Position numbers and translations under genes: made by a program
In this document: positions 18,506 to 41,665 of the stretch, piece by piece
How the letters are laid out: every line of letters starts with the position of its first letter
Position numbering within the stretch: position 1 is the first letter of the stretch
DNA from: Phytophthora colocasiae
Taxonomy: Eukaryota; Oomycota; Peronosporomycetes; Peronosporales; Peronosporaceae
Direction of reading: 5' to 3'
Assembly: GCA_018806915.1 (NCBI GenBank)
Contig: JAGKQI010000088.1
Span: 620,001 to 684,000, forward strand
DNA length: 64,000 nucleotides
Notes under the pieces: model-generated
The model's input: only the letters and a program-made list of their open reading frames with translations
Told to the model about the DNA's origin: nothing
Databases searched by the model: none

Positions 18506-18519
18506 GGTTTTCATCTTAA

Positions 18520-21500
18520 CCCCTTGGTTCCCAACGTCATAACTTACGGCTTTACGAAATCGTACGTCGTAAGTTACGACGAAAAATCTTCGAGCAATAG
18601 AAAATGGCTCGGAAAAGGGAAACCAATACTTTAATGAAGTCAATTTTTTCTTGCCCAAAGAATAAGCTGCTGGAGGTCGCACGGGAAATTGCAGAAATCG
18701 GACAGGGCTAGGGTTTGTAAAGGCGTGGGATCCGGATCGCAGCTGATTCATCATTCCTGAATTTTCCCGATGGCGCGCATCAGATCCACTGGACGCAAGA
18801 AACCTGCCGTTGCTCGACACGACGTCGACTTTCGACATCTCTGGAGGCAGCTACGAGAGGTGGGATGGAGCTCCAGACGCCCCAAGGGCCTCGAGACCGA
18901 CTGGACCTACATAAAGCCTGGCAGTTCGGTAGATGGCACGGTTGGAGTCGACTTCTTTGTTGGTGAGGCTGCTGTAGTGGCGCATGTTATTGAGACCGGA
19001 TTGCTGGTAGCTGAGGTGAGTCGTTCATTTGTGATTCGGAGTAGAATGTAAGACTAAGGCTGATGATTGTTGCAGGATGAGGCGTCTGGAAACGACGACA
19101 ACTTCGAGAATCAGAGCCATAGTGATAAAGAGGGTGGGGCTCAACGTGAAGCGCAAGCCTGTGAAGATGAAGTGCAAAACGAGAATTTGGTGCGGGCGTC
19201 CCAGATTGACACTAATATGGAGCTCTCCCAACACACAATGGATGCATTATTTGGATCTCCAACACCGAGTGAGGTAGAGCTATCACAGGGAGCTGTAGCT
19301 CGTGCATTTGACATTCCGCAAGTTGGCCTTCAGGGAGATCTTTCCGAGCCGGATGTACTGGAAGGGGCAAGTCATTTGCAGCACTTGTCGGGCGCTTCAG
19401 GGGCTGAAAGTTTGGAGTTAGACGTGCCTGTAACCAGGCAACTTCGACCGCGACGCCAGTTCAAGCACGATGTAAACTTTGTAGAGGAGAACGAGAACCC
19501 AAGTGATTATGAGCAGCTGAGCTCTGGAGAAAGTGACGGTGATACGATAGCAGACAATGATGATGATCCACTGCAGCATCGAGGAATAGATGTAGGTGAC
19601 GATGCCATCTCGGATACGGATGCTCCGGAACTGGACGAAGCATTCCTGGCTTCACTAAGCATAGGAGACGATGAAGGACTAAGCCGAGAAGCTCTCGCAA
19701 GAAGACAAGAGGCTCTCCGGGCAATGCGTTGGACGCCACCTTCATCGAACTTCGAATTCGAAGCGGACGCGTACCCGGGGCTTACCGGTGAAGAAGCACA
19801 ACCCGTTGCTGACCTACGGAAGCTATGTAATTCACCCCTCGAAACCTTCTTTTTCTTCGCACCGAAGTCTATGTGGGTCAATATTTGTGAAGAATCGAAC
19901 CGTTACTGCTCGCAGCAGATCCTCCCCAGAGCTGAGCGGATGCGCGTCAAGCAGACCGAGCGACGCGGGACGCCAACGGAAACGGTGAAGCAAATACGGC
20001 GTCGGCTCCGAATGAAGCCAGCTTACGCAACGCACGAGATTCTCCATGTGATGGGTCTGCTGGTAGCCCATATGCTGTGCCCTCCACAACGTCGATTTGC
20101 GCAGCACTGGTCCATGACAGAAGATGGCGCCGTTCCCGCCGGGACCTTCGGCAGATATATGGCAAGGAATAGGTGCCAAGACATTCTTCGAGACTTGCAT
20201 TTCGTGGATAATGAAAGAGATCAGACTCGCGACAAGTTGAGGAAGCTTCGCCCGGTTGTCGAGAAGTTACAAGAGCGTTTCCTGGCCGGTTGGACGCTGC
20301 CTGCAGTTTTTTCGTTCGACGAGGGTGTTTTGCCAGCGACCTCTCGGCGAAACACCACCAGGATGTTCATGCCGGACAAGCCGCACAGGTACGGCTCCAA
20401 AATGTTTATGACGTGTGACAGCAAGACGGCGTACTGCCACAGGTAATACTGATTTTTTTTGTTGATTTTTCAATGATGTAACTTACGACTTTGAAGCTGA
20501 CATCATTCTGCTTTGCCGTAACTTTATAGATTCGAGATTTACGTTGGTAAAATGAAAGCTCGCGATGATCAGGCCGACACATTTGATCACAAGACGGGAG
20601 CTGCTGCAGTAATTCGCAACCTCAAGGTCGTGCTCGCAAATGATCGCCAAGCCTTTCACGCAGTCACGATAGACCGTTTCTATTCATCTATCCCGTTAGC
20701 TATTGAGCTGCTTTCGATGCACGTGTACGTCGTCGGGACGGTAATGACTGGGCGACTCGGGTATGACCGCAACGTTGTCGAGCCACGAAAGACCCGGCCA
20801 AGAAGTATTCCGCGGGGCTCGTTCACGTTTTCACGCTCGCTGACTGTGCCAAGTATGATCGCCTTCCACTGGTGGGATCGTAAACCGGTCCACTACCTGT
20901 GCACAGGGTCAGTGATGACGGCATCCCTTATCAACCGCAACGTGAAAGGAGAAGGACCAACGACGGTGGCGTGTCCAAGGGCAGTCAACAACGATTACCA
21001 AGAATGGATGGGCGGAGTGGACGTGCATGACCAACTCCGCCTCCAAGCCTTCTCGATCCAGACGTCGGTTCGTTTTGCAAAATACTACAAGAGCCTATTC
21101 TTAGGTCTCATTGATTTGGTCATGGTGAATTCCTACATCTCACACAAGGCTGCGTGTAAATTGACGAACACACCGGCGATGAAGCGTGGTGAATGGTACG
21201 CTGTGCTCCACAGCCAGCTACTGCAGTTGAAGGAACAGGATTTTGCAGGGGTGGCGGTCACACCTTCACCCGGAGGCAAGAAGCGAAGACGGAAACGCGT
21301 TGGGCATTCCCTAATCCAGTTCGACGACTGGGTTACAGTATCTGGAGTCCAAAAAAGGCGCCAGCGGTCTTGCAAAGTATGCGCATTGCTCTGTGGCGAT
21401 CGCAAGAAGTCGTTTCAGACGACCTTCTACTGTGAGAACTGTTCCCTAGACGACGCCAAGTGCTACCTATGCCCAAAAGCACGACGTGAGTACAGAGGTA

Positions 21501-22059
21501 CGATGAAGACTTGCTTCCAGATATGGCACGATGATTTTGAGTGCGGGTTCGCCATCCCACCTACCTTGGGCAAGCGCGTTGTCCTCCGGCGTCCTGGAAA
21601 GAAAATAGGTGTGCGGAAGAAAACACGGCGTGAGCTGCTTCGTGAAGAAGAGGGCGAGGCGGACGACGAGCTACGTGGTGATGGTGAGGAGCTCAGCGAA
21701 GACGACAGTGAGTTCGACCTCTAGAAACGCAATGATCAGCTATCTTGTGTGTTGTTATAAAATAAACTTTCTTGAACCGACGTACCTTTTGCCTCCTTAT
21801 TTCTGAAATGATTGGGTTCAGAGTCCAACTATCTTGCGCACTTCCTTTTCTGCAATCCCCGAAGTTACGACTTTGAATCTCCACTGGACAAAAGAAAGTT
21901 GTGTATCTTACGACTAAGCCTAAATTTCACCTGTACAAATCTATATACCTACCCGCATGTGGATAGTCTACGACTATACAAACGCCTTGATAAAATGTAC
22001 GTCATAAGTTACGACCTTCGCTTAGCGGTTCCGAGGTACGAATCCTGGGAACCAAGGGG
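18520..22059 (+). mobile_element. piggyBac-like transposon PB-1 (3.5 kb, apparently complete)
   Basis: A 3540-bp element flanked by TTAA target duplications (18516-18519 and 22060-22063). Terminal inverted repeats are CCCCTTGGTTCCCA at the left edge and its complement at 22046-22059. Inside the ends are many copies of a GTCGTAAGTTACGAC-type near-palindrome, likely transposase-binding sites. One three-exon transposase gene fills the interior. With intact ends, TSDs and an open transposase frame it could be autonomous. Confidence 0.95.
18770..21724 (+). CDS. piggyBac-type (DDE_Tnp_1_7) transposase of PB-1
   Basis: Three exons (18770-19015, 19076-20442, 20530-21724) with 60- and 87-bp GT/AG introns join into one open frame of 935 aa. 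The N-terminal exon carries a short domain (DFRHLWRQLREVGW, then GVDFFVGEAAVV) also found in PB-2. Exon 2 is acidic, then enters the catalytic RNase-H-like fold: SFDEGVLPATSRRN (first Asp), VTIDRFYSSIPLAIELL (second Asp) and GGVDVHDQLRLQAF (third Asp region). The C-terminus has a Cys-rich zinc module (CKVCALLCGD, FYCENC, CYLCPK) and a basic then acidic tail. piggyBac transposases excise precisely at TTAA. No frameshift or stop is seen. Intron 2 contains a copy of the subterminal GTAACTTACGAC motif. Confidence 0.93.
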
Positions 22060-22063
22060 TTAA

Positions 22064-22746
22064 CCCTTCTGCGAAGCAATGGACTAAACTATAGTATACA
22101 AAGTTAAGTCAATGTCTTGTAAAAGGGCCCTCAGGCGCCCTTTTAGAGACAGATCGCAAGATCATCCATGCCTCAAATCTCGCAAGATGCACGAGGATAC
22201 CTCCTTCATCAACCTCTAAGGGCACATCATGCGCCTTTCAAGTTGGCGATCTGATAGGCCGATATCCTGGAGCTAAACAAAAAATCTGGAAGAATACTCT
22301 AATTGGATAAAAAGAAGTTGGTGGGAAGCAGCTTCAGGTAACAAATCAAAAATTACGTCAAACATGAGCCACGTTTTTGAACGCCATGCTTGGAATGATG
22401 ATGCTTGGATGTTGTCTTGCATGAGCACTGGCGCCGCGCTTGCAACAACTACGTCTACACAAACACTTTCCGCTTGTTAATGGCAGTCCAGAATGGCTTT
22501 ATCATTCCCTACGTGTTCGCAATTAGCTTCTTCTACAAACAGCTAGCAAACTGGAATAAATGCCTTTGAATGCCAGAATTAATTTTTATTGAAACTTAAT
22601 TATTTCAAAAACACATAGCATATAAATTACAAAACAACAAGTGAACTATCAAAAATGCGACCTGTTAAAATTAATCGCGAACAACGACGCGTGGCGACCG
22701 TCCAGCATTTCCCTCCCCTCCCGTTTCGGAGAATTCATGACGCTTA
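22064..22746. other. PB-2 left non-coding end
   Basis: About 680 bp with the TIR and AAGGGC/GCGCCC subterminal motifs but no gene. The segment 22560-22740 is AT-rich and probably holds the promoter of the former transposase gene. Confidence 0.55.
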
Positions 22747-23010
22747 GTGAAGAAGCACCCGGAGAAGAAGGCACCACCACCAGGGCAAGTCAGCAAGCGA
22801 CGCCGGCTTGATACGTCCACCGCGTGGGGCGTTCGGTTTCGTGATGTGTGGGCGGCGTTATTAAAGATGGGTGGACATCAAAGCGACCAAGTGGCCGGAG
22901 CTTGGACTCGCGATACCAGTACATCGTCCCTCGTGGGCGTTATAATGGTGAGGAAGGGGTCGACTTCTTTCTCGGCGAAGACGCCTTGATGCAACACCTC
23001 CATGATGCCG
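22747..23010 (+). pseudogene. First exon of the PB-2 piggyBac transposase, frameshifted
   Basis: The sequence aligns with the N-terminal exon of PB-1: GVRFRDVWAALLKMGG matches VDFRHLWRQLREVGW. After a one-base frameshift near 22918, YIVPRGRYNGEEGVDFFLGE matches the GVDFFVGE block, and DALMQHLHDAVQ leads to a splice donor (GTAAGTAAG) at 23011. The frameshift makes the exon non-functional as it stands. In PB-1 an intron occurs at the same point, so the inverted Myb-DOT1 copy may have landed in this intron. Confidence 0.65.
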
Positions 23011-24340
23011 TCCAAGGTAAGTAAGAATGGTGTGATTTGGTGCTACGTGTACTTGACATTGTTCGTGTATGTGCTATAGGTGACGAGCTACGAGAAGCAG
23101 TGGCAGAGCGTGGTGGCGGCGCAGTACAGCAGTGTCGCGGTGCAGCGCAAGACACCGGTGCAGCCGTTGACACCAACGTCCAAGGTGCGTGATGAATGTG
23201 TACTGGACGACGGTGCACTAGTTGCTAATGTTGTGTGCATGCGTAAGGTGCAGGTGGTGAGCATCGAGCAGCAGGCGGACTACATCTCATCGATGCTGTG
23301 CAAGGTGTGTGAGGTCTTTATGGAGGTGGTGCTTCTGATGGCTGATGCTGCTATGTGTTTTGTAGGACTTGGACATCGGGACGATGCTGGTACAGCGTAC
23401 GCTGGTACTGTCGGTAGAGGTGAGAAAGAACTACATGGACTGTGTGGGTGCTGTGGTTGTTGACGTTATTTGCGTACTGTGTATGTAGCTCACGAGCATC
23501 GTGTAGGAGTTGTTGTTAGTGACGCCGCTGGCCGAGGTGGGGGAAGCCGTGTTGTGAGATGGACACAAGATGCTGACGTTGTGCTATGTGATATGCAGTT
23601 TCCAAGCGCCGTGGATCAGCAGCAGTGGATGATGAGGGTGGCGTTACTGGCCCAGGTGAGCGGAATTATATTGTAGAGGTGTTCTGTGTTAGTGACATCG
23701 TTATGCTTGCTGTGTAGTTACCAAACGTCGCGTGTGCGTGAGTTCTGCTAGTGGTGTACGTACGTCGAGACGTAGGCGTGCAGCTGCTGAACGTCCGATT
23801 GGTGGACAATCTGCTCGTGGTCGTGCACTTCGAAGTGCTAGTAATGAACTTGCTTCGGGTGCTTTGGCTGGCACAAGTGACGGTCGTGCTTCGGCCATTG
23901 GACGTGCTGCTGGTGATGACTTTGTTTCGAGTGGCCAAGTTGGCAGCGATGAACTTGCTCGTGGTGGACGTGCGCTTCGAGGTGAACGTGCGCTTCGAGG
24001 TGAACGTCCAGCTGGTGATGAACTTGCTTCGAGTGGTAATGCTGGCACAAGTGGTGGACGAGTTTCGGACAGTGAACGTCCAGCTGGTGATGATCTTGCT
24101 TCGAGTGGTATTGGCACTAGTGGTGGACGAGCTTTGGACAGCGATCGTGCTACTGGTGATGAACGTTCTTCGAGAGGTATTGCTGGCACTAGTGGTGGAC
24201 GAGTTTCGGACAGTGAACGTCCAGCTGGTGATGATCTTGCTTCGAGTGGTATTGGCACTAGTGGTGGACGAGCTTTGGACAGCGATCGTGCTACTGGTGA
24301 TGAACGTTCTTCGAGTGGTAGTGCTGGTACTAGTGGTGGA
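23011..24340 (+). pseudogene. Inverted partial copy of the Myb-DOT1 gene (exons 2-7)
   Basis: Almost base-for-base reverse complement of 28340-29605, including the introns between exons 2-7; for example the exon 2-4 region reads through as the same 127 codons in both copies. It lacks the Myb/SANT exon 1 and the DOT1 exon 8, so it cannot make the enzyme. The Gly/Ser repeat region is longer here, with extra copies of the roughly 22-residue unit (GGRVSDSERPAGDDLASSG). It then runs into unrelated GGRT-rich sequence up to 24565. Together with the other arm it could fold into a hairpin of about 1.3 kb. Confidence 0.85.
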
Positions 24341-24559
24341 AATGATGTTCGTCGTGCGTGTGGCACTAGCGAACAACGTACAGCTAAACATGGGCGTACG
24401 GCTAGATATGGGCGTGTGTCTAGTGGTGGGCGTACTACTGCAGATGTGCGCACTTCTAGAGGTGGGCGTACGGCTAGAGGTGGCACTGCTAGAGGTGGTC
24501 GCACTATTCATGGTGGACGGGTTGCTAGTGTTGGGCGTGTTGGCGGCTGCTTGCAACGA

Positions 24560-27137
24560 ACCTAAGTCTAATACTGGACGGGCAGAAATGTATTGGGGTG
24601 TTTCAAGAAGTTCAGCATTTTCAATCGCTGGCAATAAGATCTCGGTTGGTGAAATTGAAAACTCACGGTGTCTAAATGTTCGAGCATCTAGTGGCGGTAG
24701 TTTTAGTGTCGGTACTACCCGTTACACTGGCGACAACGACGTTATATCAGTGGCCGATGAAGGTGATAGTGACGGAGTATCTGTGATTAGCGGAGGTGCC
24801 AGTAGTCCAGACACGATGAATCTTGCGCCATCTTCATCACGTGCGAACACCCCAACATCTCGATCACCCAATGAGGCCAAAACAACACCACGATCCACGC
24901 CTATCCTACTCCAAGATGTCTACATTGACAAACTGGTCGCGTTCACACCTGACAATGAAACGTGGATGAAGGCTAAGGCATACAGACCGATTGGTACATC
25001 CTACATTGTCGGCCGCATTTACCGTTCTGTGAAGAAGGGAAGAACGCTACTCTCTTTCAAATCCGATGGCTGGATAGTCAATTTCAAAATAACTTGAGAT
25101 CATCAACGCTGGCGTCGCACAGCGTGGTATCAAGAATTACGTTGCACTTACACAGTTGAAAACTCCTAACTGGCGTGTTCTCGTGGAGCCTGATCCTGGT
25201 GAGGAGCTTGACATCGACTCTGAAGCCTCCGACCCAGTGGAAGACCCCATTGAAGCGTTCGATCCTGGCAGCGTTCTTCCCACGAGTCTATCAGAGGTGG
25301 AGGCGATTAGAAACATGCGATTTGTCCCCGGAGAAGACGTTGAATCTCCCTCCTACCTGTATGCGCATGCCGACGGTACAACCAAGACCCACATCCGCCC
25401 TGAGTACAAGCACCTTTTCGAGCACTCTGCCTGCTCAAGCTTTTTCGCGTAAATAACAATATTTTCTGGCGCCAGACATTACACGAGACGAATCACTACG
25501 CTACTTTAAAGGATATTCGCATCGGCAACCCGTTCACGCTGGACGAGTTGATGACTTTCCTCGAATTTTGTTCTTCATGGCTGTGCATGATAAGGGGAGT
25601 ACGCAAACTATTGGGGTCAACAAGCCGAAGACTTAGTGTTTGGAGGATCTACAACCGCTCTAGATTCTATCATGTCACTGTATCGATTCAAGCTCCTTCG
25701 GCGTTGCCTGAGCTTCAATGCTTCGCCAACCACTCTTGAGAAAGATGCTGCGGCAAGGATTAGGCCGCTTCTGAATCTACTAAAGATCACCGGGGCAGTA
25801 CGTTAATGTCGGACGCAATGTTGCTTTGGACGAGGCTAGTGTCGCCTGCAGAACTCGCCAAGGCCGACACATGATCGTGTACAACCCCACCAAGCCAACG
25901 GGCAAGTATCACTTCCGACTTTATATGGTGTGCTGTTCTACTACGTGGATAGCTCTGAACTACAAGCTTCACTGTAATCGAAGTGACATTTTGGACCGTT
26001 TAGACGGTGTTGTTGGGCTGGAGGAAGCCCAGAGTTTGAGAGAGGAGTTCGAAGCTGTATCGAAAATCCGGCAGCATGTGCTTGAAGTTACACGACCTCT
26101 CTTTGGGACGAACCGAATTGTGAACATGGACAACTACTATACATCAGTGCAGCTGCTGCAGGAACTGCGGCTTAAAGGTCTCTATGGGGAGAGGTACAAT
26201 TCGTGCGAATAGCAAACACTTTCCTGCGCATTCAATACTGCCCAAAGATGAGTGCACTCGAGGAGACTACCGACAGGCTGTGGCTCGGGATCACAGTATG
26301 CTAGCGGCATCCTGGTGTGATGGCAATGTAGTCAACATGATTTCCAATGCAGATTCGACAGCCATTACAAGTGTGGCTCGAGTGATTGGCAAAGAACGAA
26401 AGGAATTTACGTCGCCAGTGTGTGTTGCCCACTACAACGCCAATATGCAAGGGGTTGATAGACTTGATCAAATTAGAGGACGCTTCTCTATTTCTGACGG
26501 ACACTCCTATAGACGTTGGCACAAAAAGCTGGCATTAGCACTAATCGATGTCGCGCGATCCAACGCATACCTCACTCAACGTCTCGTCAAAACGGACACC
26601 CCGCCCATCCGAGACCCTCATCGAAAGTTTATGATGGAGCTTGTGGGGGAATTGCTGAATGGACAGTGGAAAAACGCTCCTAGTGAAGGGCGCATGCTTT
26701 ACACTGGCGCATGTGCTACAAGAGACGAAATTGAAGCAGTAAACATGCCGCCGGCACGACCAAGCGTTGACCGTGTTAGAGGTGCGACGATGGTGTGTAC
26801 GTCAGTTTCGTCAAGGCAAATTTATGACAAAAGGCAGAGGAAACGTCGACGCTGCATAGTATGCAGGTGGGAGGGCAGATACCCAACCGAGGTTACGACC
26901 TACTGCTATTCCCATGACGTATGCTTGTGCCGAGAACTGCACGACGTACCTGTCAAGCCGTGGATGTGCCCAAACACTACTGCAACATGTTGGGAAAAAT
27001 TCCATCAGTTCTATCTTCAGCAAAATTTGTTTACTGACAAGGGCAACGTCAGGCGACACTCAAAGCTTGCCATGCTGAAAGCAGCAGCAGGTGACAACGA
27101 GTCGAGGCCACCTGTAGTACGCCAAATTCAAATATAG
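24560..27137 (+). pseudogene. piggyBac transposase of PB-2, decayed
   Basis: The main body of a piggyBac transposase in several frames. An acidic Ser-rich N-terminal region (to 25097) is followed by pieces at 25156-25452, about 25470-25800 and 25826-26212, and the C-terminal part at 26184-27137. Catalytic landmarks remain: NVALDEASVACRTRQG, NRIVNMDNYYTSVQLLQ and GVDRLDQIRGRFS. The C-terminal zinc-binding Cys cluster (CIVCRWEG, CYSHDVCLC) also remains. At least four frame changes are needed, including one in a GGGG run near 26190 and stops near 25098 and 25450. It is therefore dead, and PB-2 would need a transposase supplied in trans. Confidence 0.85.
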
Positions 27138-27155
27138 GTGAAGTTGTTTGTTTGA

Positions 27156-27532
27156 GTGCATGTGTTTACCTGTATGTAACTTGAATTTAGTATGCTTCTA
27201 GTGCATGTGTTTACCTGTATGTAACTTGAGTTTAGTATGCTTCTAGTGCATGTGTTTACCTGTATGTAACTTGAATTTAGTATGCTTCTAGTGCATGTGT
27301 TTACCTGTATGTAACTTGAGTTTAGTATGCTTTTAGCGCATGTGTTTACCTGTGTGTAACTTGAGTTTAGTATGCTTCTAGTGCATGTGTTTACCTGTAT
27401 GTAACTTGAATTTAGTATGCTTCTAGTGCATGTGTTTACCTGTATGTAACTTGAGTTTAGTATGCTTTTAGCGCATGTGTTTACCTGTATGTAACTTGAG
27501 TTTAGTATGCTTCTAGTGCATGTGTTTACCTG
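27156..27532 (+). repeat. 45-bp minisatellite, about 8.4 copies
   Basis: Eight full 45-bp units and a 17-bp partial unit, each starting GTGCATGTGTTTACCTGTAT. Units differ by one to three substitutions (GAATTTAG versus GAGTTTAG, TTCTAGTG versus TTTTAGCG), with a higher-order alternation. It separates the convergent 3' ends of the transposase remnant and the Myb-DOT1 gene. Confidence 0.95.
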
Positions 27533-27600
27533 AATTCCACTTAAATGTACGATGTGTTTGGTGCAAATTGACAGTAGTTATTGTTGGGAAGGCTGTGATA

Positions 27601-29945
27601 CTACTTTGTATTGCTGTTGTACAGATACACAGGAACTCGATCAGCCTTCCAGCTACATCTCACAAGGATTTCATCTGCTAGACTCCAGCGAAGACAAAAC
27701 GGCTCTGTGCACGACTTTCGATGTCTTGGGCAGAATCGAGATGTAGCCGCCAGTAAGCGAGCCTTTGATAAAGTTGCGAGCTCTCGGGCCACCACCAGCT
27801 TCGCGTCTTCTTCAAATAAAAAAATATTCGCGAATACTAATGTAGCATCACGTGTAGCAGGGTTGCTTGAAAATGAAACATCCCGCACGTCTGTTTTCTT
27901 GATCATCACTTTGCCAAGGTGCGGGAATCTTCCAACAAACCGATGGAGGCAACGCTCTGCAAGTTGACAAAGATCACTCCGAACTTCTATGCCAACGCAT
28001 GCCCGGGCTGATGTTGCTATCGCTACTTGAGCGATGATGTTGCCAACACCTGCCCCAACATCCAGAAAAATATCCCTATTGGTAACAGGACTCATCGCCC
28101 GAATTAGGCGAACAACTCCCCAAGAAAGAACTTCACCGGCATTATCCTGTGTCTTCCCAGCCTTCTGCCTCACGTCCCCGCGAGTGATGTCCCTAAAAAT
28201 AAGTCCGACTGCAACCACAGCATCGCTATGGGGTAATGGAGCAGGCGCTTGATCTACAATGAAACTCAATCAGCCGTAAACGACAGTGATACAAGGGAAT
28301 GTACATTCTTACCGGATACGTCAGAATCACTGGATGAATTTAATACGTGAGGGCTGTGACCAGCCCGTCTACCACTAGTGCCAGCAATACCACTCGAAGC
28401 AAGTTCATCACCAGCTGGACGTTCACTGTCCGAAACTCGTCCACCACTTGTGCCAGCATTACCACTCGAAGCAAGTTCATCACCAGTAGCACGATCGCTG
28501 TCCAAAGCTCGTCCACCACTAGTGCCAATACCACTCGAAGCAAGATCATCACCAGCTGGACGTTCACTGTCCGAAACTCGTCCACCACTTGTGCCAGCAT
28601 TACCACTCGAAGCAAGTTCATCACCAGCTGGACGTTCACCTCGAAGCGCACGTCCACCACGAGCAAGTTCATCGCTGCCAACTTGGCCACTCGAAACAAA
28701 GTCATCACCAGCAGCACGTCCAATGGCCGAAGCACGACCGTCACTTGTGCCAGCCAAAGCACCCGAAGCAAGTTCATTACTAGCACTTCGAAGTGCACGA
28801 CCACGAGCAGATTGTCCACCAATCGGACGTTCAGCAGCTGCACGCCTACGTCTCGACGTACGTACACCACTAGCAGAACTCACGCACACGCGACGTTTGG
28901 TAACTACACAGCAAGCATAACGATGTCACTAACACAGAACACCTCTACAATATAATTCCGCTCACCTGGGCCAGTAACTCCACCCTCATCATCCACTGCT
29001 GCTGATCCACGGCGCTTGGAAACTGCATATCACATAGCACAACGTCAGCATCTTGTGTCCATCTCACAACACGGCTTCCCCACCTCGGCCAGCGGCGTCA
29101 CTAACAACAACTCCTACACGATGCTCGTGAGCTACATACACAGTACGCAAATAACGTCAACAACCACAGCACCCACACAGTCCATGTAGTTCTTTCTCAC
29201 CTCTACCGACAGTACCAGCGTACGCTGTGCCAGCATCGTCCCGATGTCCAAGTCCTACAAAACACATAGCAGCATCAGCCATCAGAAGCACCACCTCCAT
29301 AAAGACCTCACACACCTTGCACAGCATCGATGAGATGTAGTCCGCCTGCTGCTCGATGCTCACCACCTGCACCTTACGCATGCACACAACATTAGCAACT
29401 AGTGCACCGTCGTCCAGTACACATTCATCACGCACCTTGGACGTTGGTGTCAACGGCTGCACCGGTGTCTTGCGCTGCACCGCGACACTGCTGTACTGCG
29501 CCGCCACCACGCTCTGCCACTGCTTCTCGTAGCTCGTCACCTATAGCACATACACGAACAACGTCAAGTACACGTAGCACCGAATCACACCATTCTTACT
29601 GACCTTGGACGGCGGCAGTTGCTGTGGCAACGATGCTTGTGGCAGCTGTAGCTGCCTTTCGTGAAAGAGTCCTTGGGCCACCTGCAAGTAACGACCGGGA
29701 AGGGCTACACGACGGGAGCGCCGACGTGTGTGTTGTTCTCCGAAGAAGCATCGCGGGAAGGCCCTTACTACCTTGCCGTAGGTTCTCTTTAGGCTTTCCA
29801 TCCGAAGCCGGAGCTCCTTAGACGTCCGCGTCCCATGCATCTGCCGGGCTACATATGCCCATGTAACCCGCAGGCCTTCGTCTTCGAATTGGGCAGCAAT
29901 CTGCACTAGTAGCTTGTCTTCTGCGTCTGAGAACGTAGTTCGCAT
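27601..29945 (-). CDS. Myb/SANT-like - Gly/Ser repeat - DOT1 histone methyltransferase, carried on PB-2
   Basis: An eight-exon gene read from 29945 to 27601: 29945-29604, 29540-29436, 29372-29316, 29254-29201, 29113-29068, 29022-28966, 28903-28313, 28253-27601. All introns are about 37-90 bp and GT/AG, and the exons join without a stop into 634 aa. Exon 1 holds a Myb/SANT-like domain of the oomycete type (FSDAEDKLLVQIAAQFEDEG, TWAYVARQM, LKRTYGKVVRAFPRCFF). Exon 7 encodes tandem 22-residue Gly/Ser/Arg units. Exon 8 encodes a DOT1 catalytic domain: SAM-binding DVGAGVGNIIAQVAIAT, acidic GIEVRSDLCQLAE, ATLVFANIFLFEEDAK (position of the DOT1 NNF motif) and the C-terminal CSWKADRVPVYLY, matching the SWTGKPVSYYLH block. 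Known DOT1 enzymes methylate histone H3 Lys79; targeting by the Myb domain is inference. It lies convergent to the dead transposase. Confidence 0.8.
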
Positions 29946-30255
29946 TAGTCCAATATGTTGATAATATATCTATGTAAATATCTTACCTTTCTATTGGCGG
30001 GGGGGATCTCAAATGGACGGCAGAGAGACGCCACACAGGAAGATTATGCTGCGCATCGAAAAAAAAAGGTCGTAGTTTATAAAATACCCTAGCCGTAAGA
30101 AAACAAAGTGCAGTTATTGGTAGAAATTCTGGAAGTTCTTTAAAGTACGTTTTTTTCTAAAAGGGCCTTTATGCGCCCTTCAAGCAGTCTGTTTTCGTAC
30201 CTAAATGAAAAACATACCCAAAGAGCGCATAATGCGCCCCTGCACCGCAGAAGGG
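29946..30255. other. PB-2 right non-coding end
   Basis: About 310 bp containing the presumed promoter of the Myb-DOT1 gene, subterminal AAGGGC/GCGCCC motifs and the right TIR. No gene is seen. Confidence 0.6.
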
Positions 30256-30359
30256 TTAATAACTATGGCATACTACTAGTAGTATTTGGTGCATGACAAC
30301 ATTTGGAAACACCCTTGCTACGTCAAAGTGTGGCGAGTGCCTGCGTAAATGAAAAGAGA

Positions 30360-32849: not shown

Positions 32850-35800
32850 TTAAAAGTGGCCTCCAAACTTGGTTCGTCCAGACATGGTACACTTGGGAGC
32901 TGTAGGATACGTGGATTCTGCCTGCGTGCCAACTGAGCTTCTGGGGTCATAATATTTGTATCTCCCAGTGGAACGGACGCTTTTCGAGCGTGTATCTGTG
33001 CCGAATGAATAAGCTGCCCCCGATGCAGCCGTAGATACTGCTTGGCGACCTACTGACTCGACAACAGCGGAGTACTGACCAGGTCCAACGTCACCTGTGG
33101 TTGACCCATGTAGCGGCTTTCGCTCCACCTTCGGGAATGAGGAAACAGGGTTGGACTTTTGAGTCGACAAGACAGTGCGTCCGATGGTTGTAGACGACTC
33201 GTAAGCGCCAGGTCCTGGAATTCTCTCATCACCTCCCATATTGGACCACTTCTTACCGAGGGAGTAACTAGGGGCTGCTCGTTCTCGTGGATTGACGATG
33301 TCTGAGGTGTAATCCCCCGGTCCTGGTTGTCGACCGGATGCTGATAGGTCAGCCGTGGAGCCAAACTTCTCACGTCCAGCGATGGAACACGATGGAGCTT
33401 GTGCCATTGTGGACAGCACCGGCTTGCCAATGGATGACGGTATCTGGTATGTCCCGGGGCCAGGAGCCTTGGAGCCACTGGTAGTGTGTGGACGAGTGCC
33501 GCTGCCGAAGACAGCCCCGGGTGCGGTCGCTTTTCGCGAGTCCACTTGTCCGCCGCAAGACGACTTGACATCCGTAAACGTCTGGTTCGTGGGACTTCCG
33601 AGGGGTCTTGGGGGTGATTTATTCGACGTCTGCGGACGTCCCGACATGGAGCACTTGGGAGCTGTTCGGTACGTGGACTCTACCTGCGTGCCAACAGAGC
33701 TCTTGGGGTCGTAGTATTTGTACCTCCCAGTTGAACGAACGCTTTTGGACCTAGTTTCAGTACCGAAGGAGTATGATGCCCCGGTCGCGACCGTGGAGAT
33801 TGCCTGGCGACCCACGGATTCAACGACAACCGAGTACTGACCGGGTCCAACGTCTGCTGTGCCTGACCCATGTAGCGGCTTTCGCTCCACCTTCGGGAAT
33901 GAAGACACAGGGTTGGACTTTTGAGTCGACAAGACAGTGCGTCCGATGGTTGTAGACGACTCGTAAGCGCCAGGTCCTGGAATTCTCTCATCACCTCCCA
34001 TATTGGACCACTTCTTACCGAGGGAGTAACTAGGGGCTGCTCGTTCTCGTGGATTGACGATGTCTGAGGTGTAATCCCCCGGTCCTGGTTGTCGACCGGA
34101 TGCTGATAGGTCAGCCGTGGAGCCAAACTTCTCACGTCCAGCGATGGAACACGATGGAGCTTGTGCCATTGTGGACAGCACCGGCTTGCCAATGGATGAC
34201 GGTATCTGGTATGTCCCGGGGCCAGGAGCCTTGGAGCCACTGGTAGTGTGTGGACGAGTGCCGCTGCCGAAGACAGCCCCGGGTGCGGTCGCTTTTCGCG
34301 AGTCCACTTGTCCGCCGCAAGACGACTTGACATCCGTAAACGTCTGGTTCGTGGGACTTCCGAGGGGTCTTGGGGGTGATTTATTCGACGTCTGCGGACG
34401 TCCCGACATGGAGCACTTGGGAGCTGTTCGGTACGTGGACTCTACCTGCGTGCCAACAGAGCTCTTGGGGTCGTAGTATTTGTACCTCCCAGTAGAACGG
34501 TCAGCTTTGGAGCGCGATTCTGTACCGAAGGAGTATGATGCCCCGGTCGCGACCGTGGAGATTGCCTGGCGACCCACGGATTCAACGACAACCGAGTACT
34601 GACCGGGTCCAACGTCTGCTGTGCCTGACCCATGTAGCGGCTTTCGCTCCACCTTCGGGAATGAAGACACGGGGTTGGACTTTTGAGTCGACAAGACAGT
34701 GCGTCCGATGGTTGTAGACGACTCGTAAGCGCCAGGTCCTGGAATTCTCTCATCACCTCCCATATTGGACCACTTCTTACCGAGGGAGTAACTAGGGGCT
34801 GCTCGTTCTCGTGGATTGACGATGTCTGAGGTGTAATCCCCCGGTCCTGGTTGTCGACCGGATGCTGATAGGTCAGCCGTGGAGCCAAACTTCTCACGTC
34901 CAGCGATGGAACACGATGGAGCTTGTGCCATTGTGGACAGCACCGGCTTGCCAATGGATGACGGTATCTGGTATGTCCCGGGGCCAGGAGCCTTGGAGCC
35001 ACTGGTAGTGTGTGGACGAGTGCCGCTGCCGAAGACAGCCCCGGGTGCGGTCGCTTTTCGCGAGTCCACTTGTCCGCCGCAAGACGACTTGACATCCGTA
35101 AACGTCTGGTTCGTGGGACTTCCGAGGGGTCTTGGGGGTGATTTATTCGACGTCTGCGGACGTCCCGACATGGAGCACTTGGGAGCTGTTCGGTACGTGG
35201 ACTCTACCTGCGTGCCAACAGAGCTCTTGGGGTCGTAGTATTTGTACCTCCCAGTTGAACGAACGCTTTTGGACCTAGTTTCAGTACCGAAGGAGTATGA
35301 TGCCCCGGTCGCGACCGTGGAGATTGCCTGGCGACCCACGGATTCAACGACAACCGAGTACTGACCGGGTCCAACGTCTGCTGTGCCTGACCCATGTAGC
35401 GGCTTTCGCTCCACCTTCGGGAATGAAGACACAGGGTTGGACTTTGAGTCGACAAGACAGTGCGTCCGATGGTTGTAGACGACTCGTAAGCGCCAGGTCC
35501 TGGAATTCTCTCATCACCTCCCATATTGGACCACTTCTTACCGAGGGAGTAACTAGGGGCTGCTCGTTCTCGTGGATTGACGATGTCTGAGGTGTAATCC
35601 CCCGGTCCTGGTTGTCGACCGGATGCTGATAGGTCAGCCGTGGAGCCAAACTTCTCACGTCCAGCGATGGAACACGATGGAGCTTGTGCCATTGTGGACA
35701 GCACCGGCTTGCCGATAGTCGAGGGTATCTGGTAGGCGCCGGGACCAGGAGCCTTGGAGCCACTGGTAGTGTGTGGACGAGTGCCGCTGCCGAAGACAGC

Positions 35801-38800
35801 CCCGGGTGCGGTCGCTTTTCGCGAGTCCACTTGTCCGCCGCAAGACGACTTGACATCCGTAAACGTCTGGTTCGTGGGACTTCCGAGGGTCTTGGGGTGA
35901 TTTATTCGACGTCTGCGGACGTCCCGACATGGAGCACTTGGGAGCTGTTCGGTACGTGGACTCTACCTGCGTGCCAACAGAGCTCTTGGGGTCATAATAT
36001 CTTGTACCTCCCAGTAGAACGGTCAGCTTTGGACCTAGTTTCAGTACCGAAGGAGTATGATGCCCCGGTCGCGACCGTGGAGATTGCCTGGCGACCCACG
36101 GATTCAACGACAACCGAGTACTGACCGGGTCCAACGTCTGCTGTGCCTGACCCATGTAGCGGCTTTCGCTCCACCTTCGGGAATGAAGACACAGGGTTGG
36201 ACTTTTGAGTCGACAAGACAGTGCGTCCGATGGTTGTAGACGACTCGTAAGCGCCAGGTCCTGGAATTCTCTCATCACCTCCCATATTGGACCACTTCTT
36301 ACCGAGGGAGTAACTAGGGGCTGCTCGTTCTCGTGGATTGACGATGTCTGAGGTGTAATCCCCCGGTCCTGGTTGTCGACCGGATGCTGATAGGTCAGCC
36401 GTGGAGCCAAACTTCTCACGTCCAGCGATGGAACACGATGGAGCTTGTGCCATTGTGGACAGCACCGGCTTGCCGATAGTCGAGGGTATCTGGTAGGCGC
36501 CGGGACCAGGAGCCTTGGAGCCACTGGTAGTATGTGGACGAGTGCCGCTGCCGAAGACAGCCCCGGGTGCGGTCGCTTTTCGCGAGTCCACTTGTCCGCC
36601 GCAAGACGACTTGACATCCGTAAACGTCTGGTTCGTGGGACTTCCGAGGGGTCTTGGGGGTGATTTATTCGACGTCTGCGGACGTCCCGACATGGAGCAC
36701 TTGGGAGCTGTTCGGTACGTGGACTCTACCTGCGTGCCAACAGAGCTCTTGGGGTCATAATATCTCGATGCTCCAGTAGAACGGTCAGCTTTGGAGCGCG
36801 ATTCTGTACCGAAGGAGTATGATGCCCCGGTCGCGACCGTGGAGATTGCCTGGCGACCCACGGATTCAACGACAACCGAGTACTGACCGGGTCCAACGTC
36901 TGCTGTGCCTGACCCATGTAGCGGCTTTCGCTCCACCTTCGGGAATGAAGACACAGGGTTGGACTTTTGAGTCGACAAGACAGTGCGTCCGATGGTTGTA
37001 GACGACTCGTAAGCGCCAGGTCCTGGAATTCTCTCATCACCTCCCATATTGGACCACTTCTTACCGAGGGAGTAACTAGGGGCTGCTCGTTCTCGTGGAT
37101 TGACGATGTCTGAGGTGTAATCCCCCGGTCCTGGTTGTCGACCGGATGCTGATAGGTCAGCCGTGGAGCCAAACTTCTCACGTCCAGCGATGGAACACGA
37201 TGGAGCTTGTGCCATTGTGGACAGCACCGGCTTGCCAATGGATGACGAGGGTATCTGATATGTCCCGGGGCCAGGAGCCTTGGAGCCACTGGTAGTGTGT
37301 GGACGAGTGCCGCTGCCGAAGACAGCCCCGGGTGCGGTCGCTTTTCGCGAGTCCACTTGTCCGCCGCAAGACGACTTGACATCCGTAAACGTCTGGTTCG
37401 TGGGACTTCCGAGGGGTCTTGGGGGTGATTTATTCGACGTCTGCGGACGTCCCGACATGGAGCACTTGGGAGCTGTTCGGTACGTGGACTCTACCTGCGT
37501 GCCAACAGAGCTCTTGGGGTCGTAGTATTTGTACCTCCCAGTTGAACGAACGCTTTTGGACCTAGTTTCAGTACCGAAGGAGTATGATGCCCCGGTCGCG
37601 ACCGTGGAGATTGCCTGGCGACCCACGGATTCAACGACAACCGAGTACTGACCGGGTCCAACGTCTGCTGTGCCTGACCCATGTAGCGGCTTTCGCTCCA
37701 CCTTCGGGAATGAAGACACAGGGTTGGACTTTGAGTCGACAAGACAGTGCGTCCGATGGTTGTAGACGACTCGTAAGCGCCAGGTCCTGGAATTCTCTCA
37801 TCACCTCCCATATTGGACCACTTCTTACCGAGGGAGTAACTAGGGGCTGCTCGTTCTCGTGGATTGACGATGTCTGAGGTGTAATCCCCCGGTCCTGGTT
37901 GTCGACCGGATGCTGATAGGTCAGCCGTGGAGCCAAACTTCTCACGTCCAGCGATGGAACACGATGGAGCTTGTGCCATTGTGGACAGCACCGGCTTGCC
38001 GATAGTCGAGGGTATCTGGTAGGCGCCGACCAGGAGCCTTGGAGCCACTGGTAGTATGTGGACGAGTGCCGCTGCCGAAGACAGCCCCGGGTGCGGTCGC
38101 TTTTCGCGAGTCCACTTGTCCGCCGCAAGACGACTTGACATCCGTAAACGTCTGGTTCGTGGGACTTCCGAGGGTCTTGGGGGTGATTTATTCGACGTCT
38201 GCGGACGTCCCGACATGGAGCACTTGGGAGCTGTTCGGTACGTGGACTCTACCTGCGTGCCAACAGAGCTCTTGGGGTCATAATATCTCGATGCTCCAGT
38301 AGAACGGTCAGCTTTGGAGCGCGATTCTGTACCGAAGGAGTATGATGCCCCGGTCGCGACCGTGGAGATTGCCTGGCGACCCACGGATTCAACGACAACC
38401 GAGTACTGACCGGGTCCAACGTCTGCTGTGCCTGACCCATGTAGCGGCTTTCGCTCCACCTTCGGGAATGAAGACACAGGGTTGGACTTTTGAGTCGACA
38501 AGACAGTGCGTCCGATGGTTGTAGACGACTCGTAAGCGCCAGGTCCTGGAATTCTCTCATCACCTCCCATATTGGACCACTTCTTACCGAGGGAGTAACT
38601 AGGGGCTGCTCGTTCTCGTGGATTGACGATGTCTGAGGTGTAATCCCCCGGTCCTGGTTGTCGACCGGATGCTGATAGGTCAGCCGTGGAGCCAAACTTC
38701 TCACGTCCAGCGATGGAACACGATGGAGCTTGTGCCATTGTGGACAGCACCGGCTTGCCGGATAGACGAGGGTATCTGGTATGTCCCGGGGCCAGGAGCC

Positions 38801-40497
38801 TTGGAGCCACTGGTAGTGTGTGGACGAGTGCCGCTGCCGAAGACAGCCCCGGGTGCGGTCGCTTTTCGCGAGTCCACTTGTCCGCCGCAAGACGACTTGA
38901 CATCCGTAAACGTCTGGTTCGTGGGACTTCCGAGGGGTCTTGGGGGTGATTTATTCGACGTCTGCGGACGTCCCGACATGGAGCACTTGGGAGCTGTTCG
39001 GTACGTGGACTCTACCTGCGTGCCAACAGAGCTCTTGGGGTCATAATATCTCGATGCTCCAGTAGAACGGTCAGCTTTGGAGCGCGATTCTGTACCGAAG
39101 GAGTATGATGCCCCGGTCGCGACCGTGGAGATTGCCTGGCGACCCACGGATTCAACGACAACCGAGTACTGACCGGGTCCAACGTCTGCTGTACCTGAAC
39201 CATGTAGTGGCTTTCGCTCCACCTTCGGGAATGAAGACACGGGGTTGGACTTTTGAGTCGACAAGACAGTGCGTCCGATGGTTGTAGACGACTCGTAAGC
39301 GCCAGGTCCTGGAATTCTCTCATCACCTCCCATATTGGACCACTTCTTACCGAGGGAGTAACTAGGGGCTGCTCGTTCTCGTGGATTGACGATATCTGAG
39401 GTGTAATCCCCCGGTCCTGGTTGTCGACCGGATGCTGATAGGTCAGCCGTGGAGCCAAACTTCTCACGTCCAGCAATGGAACACGATGGAGCTTGTGCCA
39501 TTGTGGACAGTACTGGTTTGCCAATGGATGACGGTATCTGGTATGTCCCGGGACCAGGAGCCATGGAGCCACTGGTAGTATGTGGACGGGAGCCACTACC
39601 GAATACTGGGTAAGGTGCTGTCGCCTTTCGTGAGTCCACTTGTCCGCCGCAGGACGACTTGACATCCGTAAACGTCTGGTTCGTGGGACTTCCATGGGGT
39701 CGTTGAGGCGAAGATGTCTGAGGACGTCCTGACATAGAGCACATAGGAGCTGTTCGGTACGTGGATTCTACCTGCGTGCCAACAGAGCTCTTGGGGTCAT
39801 AGTATTGAGCACCTGCAGTGGTGGATCGGTCGATTCTAGAGCGCGACTCCGTTCCAAACGAGTAAGATGCCCCGGTCGCGACCGTGGAGATTGCCTGGCG
39901 ACCCACGGATTCAACGACAACCGAGTACTGACCGGGTCCAACGTCTGCTGTGCCTGACCCATGTAGCGGCTTTCGCTCCACCTTCGGGAATGAAGACACA
40001 GGGTTGGACTTTTGAGTCGACAAGACAGTGCGTCCGATGGTTGTAGACGACTCGTAAGCGCCAGGTCCTGGAATTCTCTCATCACCTCCCATATTGGACC
40101 ACTTCTTACCGAGGGAGTAACTAGGGGCTGCTCGTTCTCGTGGATTGACGATGTCTGAGGTGTAATCCCCCGGTCCTGGTTGTCGACCGGATGCTGATAG
40201 GTCAGCCGTGGAGCCAAACTTCTCACGTCCAGCAATGGAACACGATGGAGCTTGTGCCATTGTGGAAAGCACTGGTTTGCCAATGGATGATGGTATCTGG
40301 TAGGTGCCGGGGCCTGGAGCTTTTGAGTCAAGCGCATTGTATTGACGGTTGCCACTTCCAAAGACTGGATAGGGTGCGGTCGCCTTTCGTGAGTCAACTT
40401 GCTCTCCGCAGGATGACTTGATATCCGTATACACCTGATGGATGGGGCCTCCTAGAGATTTACTCGGAGACGTCTGTGCGCGGGGGGAAGCCGCCAT
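32850..40497 (-). CDS. Giant SHIPPO / sperm-tail PG-rich repeat flagellar protein, frameshifted
   Basis: Proteins with SHIPPO repeats (PGPGxY) associate with axonemal microtubules, and oomycete zoospores are flagellate. The chain would be about 2,550 aa, built from roughly ten 254-residue units. Each unit has PG-rich motifs: DVGPGQYSVVVESVGRQ, APGPGTYQIPSSIGK, PGPGDYTSDIVNPRERAAP, IPGPGAYESSTTIGRT, and two YxDxKSSxGxQ variants. The first and last units are the most diverged, as is usual when inner units are homogenised. The first ATG in frame is at 40497; an upstream exon is possible because the frame stays open to about 40585. Seven indels (near 38759, 38172, 38028, 37732, 35999, 35886-35896, 35442) break the frame, mostly in G or T runs. 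This is either a pseudogene or a repeat region with assembly errors. Confidence 0.8.
33011..40400 (-). repeat. Tandem array of 762-bp coding units, about ten copies
   Basis: The same landmark recurs at 33011, 33773, 34535, 35297, 36057, 36819, 37584, 38342, 39105 and 39864, with spacings of 762, 762, 762, 760, 762, 765, 758, 763 and 759. Inner units are almost identical over hundreds of bases. Two sub-types alternate (PSSIGK with GTY versus PSTIGK with GAY; KSVRSTGRY versus KADRSTGAS), showing exchange between units. Confidence 0.95.
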
Positions 40498-41665
40498 AGT
40501 TGGAACTACGGATTCTTTAACTCGTTCTGACGGAGCTGATCGGAATTTGATAGCCGATGTCCGTGCCAAGTATGGACTCAGTCACGGAAGATTGTCTTGA
40601 AGTTTCACCTTGCTACACGTCGAGCTGGGGAAACTTCAAATAGGTTGCACCACATCAGCGTCAAGGAAAAACTAGCATGAAGAGAAGAGAATGCAGTGCT
40701 GCCATGAATAGACTCCGGCTGATCCTTTTTATATAAGGCTAGGAATAGCACACCCCTGCTATTTAAAAAATAGCTCCTTTCATTTCAAGAACATGATGTG
40801 TAACACACCACAAGCTTGTCTCTTCCAATAAAAAAGGCAGCAGTAACCGGCAGCGTCGTGAGCGTCCAGAGGGATCCTTGAACTGAACTGGAGATGGCGG
40901 TACATCTTCTTCTTTCTGCATTCACTGTGAATCACCAGTGTGATGGCATAACCACCGGAATGACGTGTGCAAGGAATGGTGGTGCCTAACAACGCAAACA
41001 TGACAAGCCAGTGTTGCGCTTGACTTAAGAGCTGCTAGGCAATGCCGCTGGACTTTGAAGGAGTGGTGCTGGACGCAATGGCCCTGCCTCAGTCTGAGGC
41101 TCAGACTACGGCCTGTAAGTATTTGCTGATGAAGATTCTTGGAGTATCTTGGTGGACAACGGTAACGGTTGGTTAGAAATGTTTCTAAATAAAAAGTGTG
41201 CATAGAAGGTCGGAATACCGCAGCTTACGTTCCAGTGCCAGACAGCCAGACATGCACAACTTGTGCAGCACAAATGCCACGCAAAGAACTGTTGTATCCA
41301 TAGCACCACGAAGATTTCTACACGTGCACCTACATGTACTGTGTCCTTCTGAAGAGGTTCTTTACTTTAGATTCTGGTAAAGGAGTCAAAAAATTATGAA
41401 TCAGGTTTTCCTGTCTGCAATTGGCTCGAAGCCGCATGGCGAGCGCGTGGCGAGTGCGGCTCGGCTCGGTCAAGTCCATGCGCAACCATTACATTGTTGT
41501 ACATGAAGCACAGCATTGTAGCGATGACCTCCCAACCAACTCGGGTCTTTTGCTGCTCTCTGGGGTTCAAATCACCTCGGACCCTGTCTGCTGTCTGAAA
41601 ACTCCGACGTATGCAGCAGCGACACAAGAATCCTGGTCCGATGTAGTTTATGTGATCTCTGAATA
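40498..41665. other. Intergenic region upstream of the SHIPPO gene
   Basis: No gene is recognised. A TTTATATAAGG sequence at about 40728-40738 could be a TATA-like element on either strand. The remainder has only short frames without family likeness. Confidence 0.45.

Follow-up and report, generated by a model that had tools for sequence, protein, structure and literature searches.

DOT1 is usually regarded as a host enzyme that writes H3K79 methylation. According to the text of PMC12730594, which cites Kojima and Jurka (Repbase Reports 2014), HarbingerS and MuDR transposons of Phytophthora carry SET methyltransferase genes, and many fungal DNA transposons carry TET/JBP dioxygenase genes; the main text of that paper holds no match to DOT1 or piggyBac. 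In P. megakarya, expanded gene families with inverted repeats at block ends have been tied to piggyBac-like elements, as described in the main text of PMC7341134. A literature search, with most subscription journals and Repbase Reports 2014 lying outside it, found no publication on DOT1 in piggyBac elements. Altogether, SET genes in Phytophthora transposons are already known and DOT1 in piggyBac is a different variant.

Here, we analysed a 64,000-nucleotide stretch of Phytophthora colocasiae DNA (hereafter the window). A preliminary description had placed a gene that joins a Myb/SANT-like domain to a DOT1 domain inside a piggyBac-like element, PB-2. This was borne out by profile matches, a fold match and TTAA-bounded copies, and we are almost certain of both the identity of the gene and its membership of PB-2. 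The same description took the gene for the cargo of one element; it does lie inside PB-2, and its distribution was understated in that Myb-DOT1 recurs as the second gene in at least eight diverged piggyBac families, to which we assigned the letters A-H in the present analysis.

The PB-2 element and its Myb-DOT1 gene

The features of PB-2 are collected in Table 1.

Table 1. Features of PB-2 and its Myb-DOT1 gene, in window positions
Feature	Position	Strand	Remarks
PB-2, piggyBac element of family E, 8.2 kb	22060..30259	.	TTAA to TTAA; 10-bp perfect inverted ends; multicopy
Left inverted end CCCTTCTGCG	22064..22073	+	Perfect 10-bp match to right end
Right inverted end CCCTTCTGCG, minus-strand reading	30246..30255	-	Perfect 10-bp match to left end
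Inverted repeat, left arm	23007..24340	+	Near-copy of Myb-DOT1 exons 2-7, 5' side of transposase gene
piggyBac transposase domain	25784..27137	+	PF13843; two ORFs in different frames (25784-26212, 26124-27137); broken copy
45-bp tandem array, 8.4 copies	27155..27532	.	Between the two convergent genes
Myb-DOT1 gene, eight-exon model, 632 aa in window copy	27601..29945	-	GT donors, AG acceptors; predicted splicing
Exons 1-4	29945-29604, 29540-29436, 29366-29316, 29254-29201	-	
Exons 5-8	29113-29068, 29022-28966, 28903-28313, 28253-27601	-	
Exon 7, repetitive linker with 72/141-nt units	28313..28903	-	Length differs among copies by multiples of three
Inverted repeat, right arm	28362..29613	-	Within Myb-DOT1 gene
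Myb/SANT-like domain, exon 1	29739..29945	-	PF13921; aligns with seven other families
DOT1 catalytic domain, Pfam-matched part, in exon 8	27724..28092	-	PF08123, 57.8 bits, cut-off 23

PB-2 is inserted at TTAA, which is present at both of its ends (22060 and 30256-30259), and has the terminal inverted repeats of the piggyBac type. We compared the window copy with five fetched family E copies (L029-L033). Homology of L030 to PB-2 starts exactly at the left TTAA, that of L029 and L031 ends at most 2 bp from the right TTAA, and the DNA outside the PB-2 ends differs among L029-L031. Because copies start or stop at the PB-2 ends while their flanks differ, we conclude that the DOT1 gene lies inside a mobile, multicopy element.

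The two transposase ORFs of PB-2 matched PF13843 (DDE_Tnp_1_7) with 44.3 and 43.0 bits (cut-off 22.4); the transposase is broken, and the match across 25562-26191 holds five stops. The transposase and Myb-DOT1 genes are convergent, i.e. 3' to 3'. The arms of the 1.3-kb inverted repeat are 95-99% complementary, and exons 2-7 of Myb-DOT1, and with them most of its linker, lie within this repeat, whose other arm is at the 5' side of the transposase gene. Moreover, a single 922-aa frame in L029 runs through the linker, in the same frame as in Myb-DOT1, into the transposase and, therefore, the linker seems to be common to both proteins in family E.

Other sequences adjoin PB-2 in the window. A second piggyBac element, PB-1 (18516-22063), has TTAA plus a 14-bp shared end (CCCCTTGGTTCCCA) and shows a transposase without DOT1; its right TTAA is the left TTAA of PB-2. 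The pectinesterase beside PB-2 shares 96% identity with a P. capsici pectinesterase. On the minus strand, 32850-40581 contains long overlapping open frames, several of them of ~253 aa and evenly spaced, and the frame 38701-40581 has sperm-tail PG-rich repeats.

The DVGAGVGN loop, previously named as the SAM loop of the DOT1 domain, was confirmed and, together with GIE and FANIF, gives the window DOT1 its cofactor-binding residues and loop asparagine. The "NN"-loop asparagine of DOT1 matters for catalysis. PF08123, a check set beforehand, gave 57.8 bits against the cut-off of 23 in the ORF 27601-28269 (minus strand). Moreover, a confident structure model of the DOT1 fold had DOT1 enzymes as its best structural matches, and the best 20 of 22 PDB matches by sequence were histone methyltransferases. 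A SET domain was absent in Pfam scans of the window ORFs (E up to 0.1) and of six other Myb-DOT1 families (E up to 0.05). Beyond the catalytic core, most element DOT1 proteins have a conserved Cys/His cluster (C-x-x-H ... C ... F-C; window 27604-28251), and a cluster of similar form is present in the probable host DOT1 L009; judged by its residues, this cluster could bind zinc.

The Myb/SANT-like domain is at the detection limit. The corresponding profile check gave a borderline outcome: the 69-aa Myb region scanned alone passed PF13921 (23.5, cut-off 22.9) and reached 23.7 with PF00249 (cut-off 24.4), whereas the longer ORF 29541-29969 (minus strand) stayed below both cut-offs (PF00249, 21.4 vs 24.4; PF13921, 21.3 vs 22.9). 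In a PDB profile search, the best match of the Myb region was a weak one to TRF1 (E 0.08). In a structure model of the family A protein, not of the window exon, the Myb region has helices at 6-21, 28-33 and 42-56.

The gene had also been described as intact, with eight cleanly spliced exons and a product of 634 aa. The eight-exon model is open in the window copy with GT and AG sites, and its product is two residues shorter than had been described; the gene is intact in the reading of that copy, whereas this reading is not kept in any of the five other copies and rests on two homopolymer runs; the splicing is predicted. Specifically, exon 1 has one additional C in a C run in all five other family E copies, and a G run makes the length of exon 5 differ (45, 46 or 47 nt) across copies. 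Because these two runs vary, no copy other than that of the window has the eight-exon reading open; in L033, an alternative reading of exons 2-5 is open. It is possible that the homopolymer differences come from assembly errors. The length of exon 7 is 378-891 nt among six copies and changes solely by multiples of three, and the frame of exon 8 is kept in five of the six family E copies.

DOT1 and piggyBac transposases across the genome

A DOT1 search of the genome (92.5 Mb, 105 contigs) gave 135 matches, or 134 places once merged, and the final census of piggyBac transposases, in which several query sets were combined, held 271 places. A piggyBac transposase place was at most 6 kb away from 115 of the 134 DOT1 places, a count that includes the probable host gene L009, while 4.7 were expected under even placement. 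In a control with MULE transposons, built on 150 match rows, four of the 134 DOT1 places were near a MULE with 2.6 expected. Thus, the even-placement expectation and the MULE control rule out chance proximity of DOT1 and piggyBac. The number of paired DOT1 places rose from 54/135 to 86 and then to 115/134 as transposase queries were added, and the first census was low because the transposase list was short. The census was built from 118/154 transposase rows at first, from 71/71 rows and 150/152 matches thereafter, and finally from the rows of one more transposase search and 32/158 matches (at least 81% identity), with three short pieces left out.

All 20 best-scoring DOT1 places had a piggyBac transposase inside the fetched 10-kb stretch, and 18 of them had a Myb match beside DOT1. 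The exceptions were L009 and L013, and L013 holds a Myb region by DNA alignment despite having no profile match. From the 44 DOT1 places that were then unpaired at 15 kb, we picked four (L034-L037); three of these (L034, L035 and L036) are Myb-DOT1 genes adjoining a more distant piggyBac transposase. Both a transposase and Myb-DOT1 are present in L038. For 17 of the 134 DOT1 places, there was no piggyBac match within 10 kb; the one inspected among these, L037, is a DOT1 without Myb beside a kinesin gene. Similarly, the 511-aa DOT1 encoded in L009 lacks Myb, and its neighbour is a peroxin-3 gene. L009 and L037, the two Myb-less DOT1 genes among those fetched, resemble host genes.

These two host-like genes would fit a reading in which DOT1 is a host gene family that is merely near piggyBac elements. 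For PB-2, this reading is refuted by the TTAA-bounded copies that have different flanks and the gene inside and, across the genome, the excess of pairs over expectation and the lack of enrichment near MULE argue against it; we give it next to no credence. L009 (4644-9086) lies ~0.5 kb from a same-strand transposase that is 79% identical to that of family G, which may be chance or a hint to the route by which DOT1 was captured.

DOT1 was near the transposases of family F in 25 of 30 places and near close G-type transposases in five of six. By contrast, distant G-type transposases were near DOT1 in two of 43 places at 60-90% identity, one of these being L009, and in none of 48 at 35-60%. Because these distant relatives are without a nearby DOT1, we conclude that DOT1 pairs with particular piggyBac families and reject it as a generic piggyBac property.

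Myb and DOT1 lie within one simple ORF in families A, C, D, F, G and H. We located both element ends in E and G and one in C, D and F; in A, B, D and H, the comparison did not extend to the far end. The one family G copy seen at both ends (L036) is delimited by TTAA plus a 14-bp inverted end (CCCCTCCAAACCGG), at positions 863 and 6318, and encloses both genes. In families D (L025, L026), C (L024, L027) and F (L034, L035), the copies share one TTAA-bounded end and have differing flanks beyond it. Families E and G have different repeats near their element ends: in G, TATGCTGCATA-type repeats occur close to either end (L036 863-1000, 6170-6318), unlike the end words of family E. Such end-proximal repeats would be candidate Myb-binding sites and the first place to look for them.

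The families also differ in internal structure. In L010-L028, the DOT1 segment is enclosed by long, nearly identical internal repeats, which are inverted in families A (1 kb) and C (1.6 kb) and direct in family B (1.6 kb); the segment of L010 is flipped relative to L011, as if by recombination between these repeats. Family F (L034, L035) has two further long ORFs of ~235-280 and 188 aa, and no Pfam match was found in the two that were scanned (L034 2833-3537, 6639-7202).

Descent and constraint of Myb-DOT1

Homologs of Myb-DOT1 numbered 30 by single-sequence search and 44 by profile; the rows with a species name are all from Phytophthora (megakarya, capsici, sojae, palmivora, cinnamomi, fragariae, cactorum, idaei and aleatoria) and the rest are environmental records. 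The Myb-DOT1 proteins of five other families and the named relatives are 29-53% identical to that of family A. In unrooted FastTree trees of DOT1 and the transposase (10 sequences each; 259 and 148 columns, respectively), the transposases formed two deep clades with DOT1 carriers in both, and D and E were sisters in both trees. The DOT1 of family B groups with A and C, while its transposase groups with H; because the two group differently, the trees suggest exchange between elements. The PB-1 transposase, which is without DOT1, groups with F and G, and the two host DOT1 sequences fall beside F with a support of 0.03. With these placements, a single capture followed by strict co-descent is unsupported.

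Between families, dN and dS were 0.26 and 2.26 for A vs B, and 0.47 and 2.07 for B vs C; three other family pairs were saturated in dS. Thus, the DOT1 domain is under purifying selection between families. Within families, pN/pS was 0.24 in A and 0.46 in exon 8 of E, and 0.96 in B and 1.24 in F (one pair), with few changes in the latter two and too few in C and D for an estimate. The reference frame was stop-free in 27/27 copies, and small indels were present in 10/27. In total, these sequence comparisons argue that Myb-DOT1 very probably has a conserved function for the element.

The alternative is a passenger, i.e. a host DOT1 gene that was caught once or more by piggyBac and brings the element no benefit. 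The small indels, the two families (B and F) without within-family constraint, and the probable host gene L009 adjoining a G-like transposase are what such a history would leave, while eight diverged families with dN far below dS between them, and a Myb-DOT1 fusion that recurs across families, are not; accordingly, we consider a passenger highly improbable.

Candidate roles and known systems

We propose that PB-2 is one of a set of two-gene piggyBac elements that encode a transposase and a Myb-DOT1 protein. The Myb/SANT-like domain would bind the DNA of its own element, perhaps at the repeats near the ends, and the bound protein would bring the DOT1 domain to nucleosomes on the element. H3K79 methylation there may keep the copy transcribed and open to the transposase against heterochromatin of the H3K9me3/H3K27me3 type, in which the transposon-rich centromeres of P. 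sojae lie according to PMC7082073. Because a protein of this kind works in trans, Myb-DOT1 could still be supplied by a copy whose transposase is broken, such as the window PB-2. Anti-silencing by self-targeted H3K79 methylation is the reading that we put first, and we do so tentatively; the explanation as a whole, i.e. two-gene elements, a conserved Myb-DOT1 protein and self-targeted anti-silencing methylation, comes close to an even chance in our judgement.

According to the text of PMC13076208, brown algae, which are also stramenopiles, have an expanded set of DOT1 genes, and their H3K79 methylation is repressive; therefore, the direction of the effect of this mark is not to be assumed here. 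The same observations would suit self-restraint, in which H3K79 methylation is a silencing mark that Myb-DOT1 places on its own copies, repressing them and thereby restricting transposition. Self-limiting genes would be expected to spread less readily, and we regard self-restraint as unlikely.

Two further alternatives leave the anti-silencing reading aside. H3K79 methylation helps to recruit checkpoint proteins in yeast and animals. Conceivably, DOT1 marks the chromatin of the excision site and thereby helps to hold and rejoin the double-strand break; the Myb-DOT1 gene accompanies the transposase, and piggyBac transposition is of the cut-and-paste type and involves TTAA overhangs, as described in the main text of PMC7341134. 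However, this role in break repair would explain the Myb domain poorly unless it binds the ends, and distant piggyBac relatives do without DOT1 (0/48 for the G-type at 35-60% identity), making it improbable.

Alternatively, an end-binding protein might methylate the transposase or another factor or, in some families, bind without methylation. The loop asparagine is present in families A, B, D, E and H, whereas F and G have a histidine there, and this substitution, as well as the linker common to the transposase in family E, would suit such a non-histone role. However, A and B keep the ANN loop, all eight families keep the cofactor-binding motifs, and histone methyltransferases make up the best 20 of the 22 PDB sequence matches; we rate this role as low as break repair.

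Returning to self-targeted anti-silencing, a more specific form of it is possible and, on balance, doubtful: the Myb domain of each family would recognise repeats near the ends of its own element and DOT1 would methylate H3K79 at those repeats, leaving the element in control of its own chromatin state, and the enzyme, passed between transposase lineages, would now supply most DOT1 domains of the genome. Irrespective of the role, most DOT1 domains of this genome adjoin piggyBac transposases, and a DNA-binding-like domain is joined to them in the families examined. Should these proteins be active, they would represent natural self-targeted histone editing by mobile elements as well as a route for the expansion of the DOT1 family in stramenopiles. 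Moreover, some Phytophthora genes labelled as H3K79-specific methyltransferases may be transposon genes, which calls for caution in annotation.

Compared with known DOT1/DOT1L/Dot1p enzymes, Myb-DOT1 is short, fused to Myb and encoded by a transposon, and human DOT1L is 15-18% identical to it (Foldseek). The P. megakarya blocks likewise contain expanded families associated with piggyBac and inverted repeats at block ends; by contrast, their proteins are called hypothetical, and DOT1 or methyltransferase is not named in the main text of PMC7341134. Similar to VANC of Arabidopsis VANDAL, Myb-DOT1 is a second gene with a proposed sequence-specific relief of the silencing of its own family; VANC, as presented in the texts of PMC10398659 and PMC5735166, has been tested in vivo, and the likeness drawn here is one of proposed role. 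The TET/JBP transposons, as presented in the text of PMC12730594, also have an enzyme for a chromatin or DNA mark in several transposon lineages with transfers between them, and differ in that they concern DNA methylation, fungi and other transposon superfamilies. Finally, the HarbingerS and MuDR SET elements, known here via the text of the citing paper PMC12730594, share with the Myb-DOT1 piggyBac elements that an oomycete DNA transposon carries a histone methyltransferase gene beside its transposase; in the present case, a piggyBac element carries the gene, and the enzyme is DOT1 joined to a Myb/SANT-like domain.
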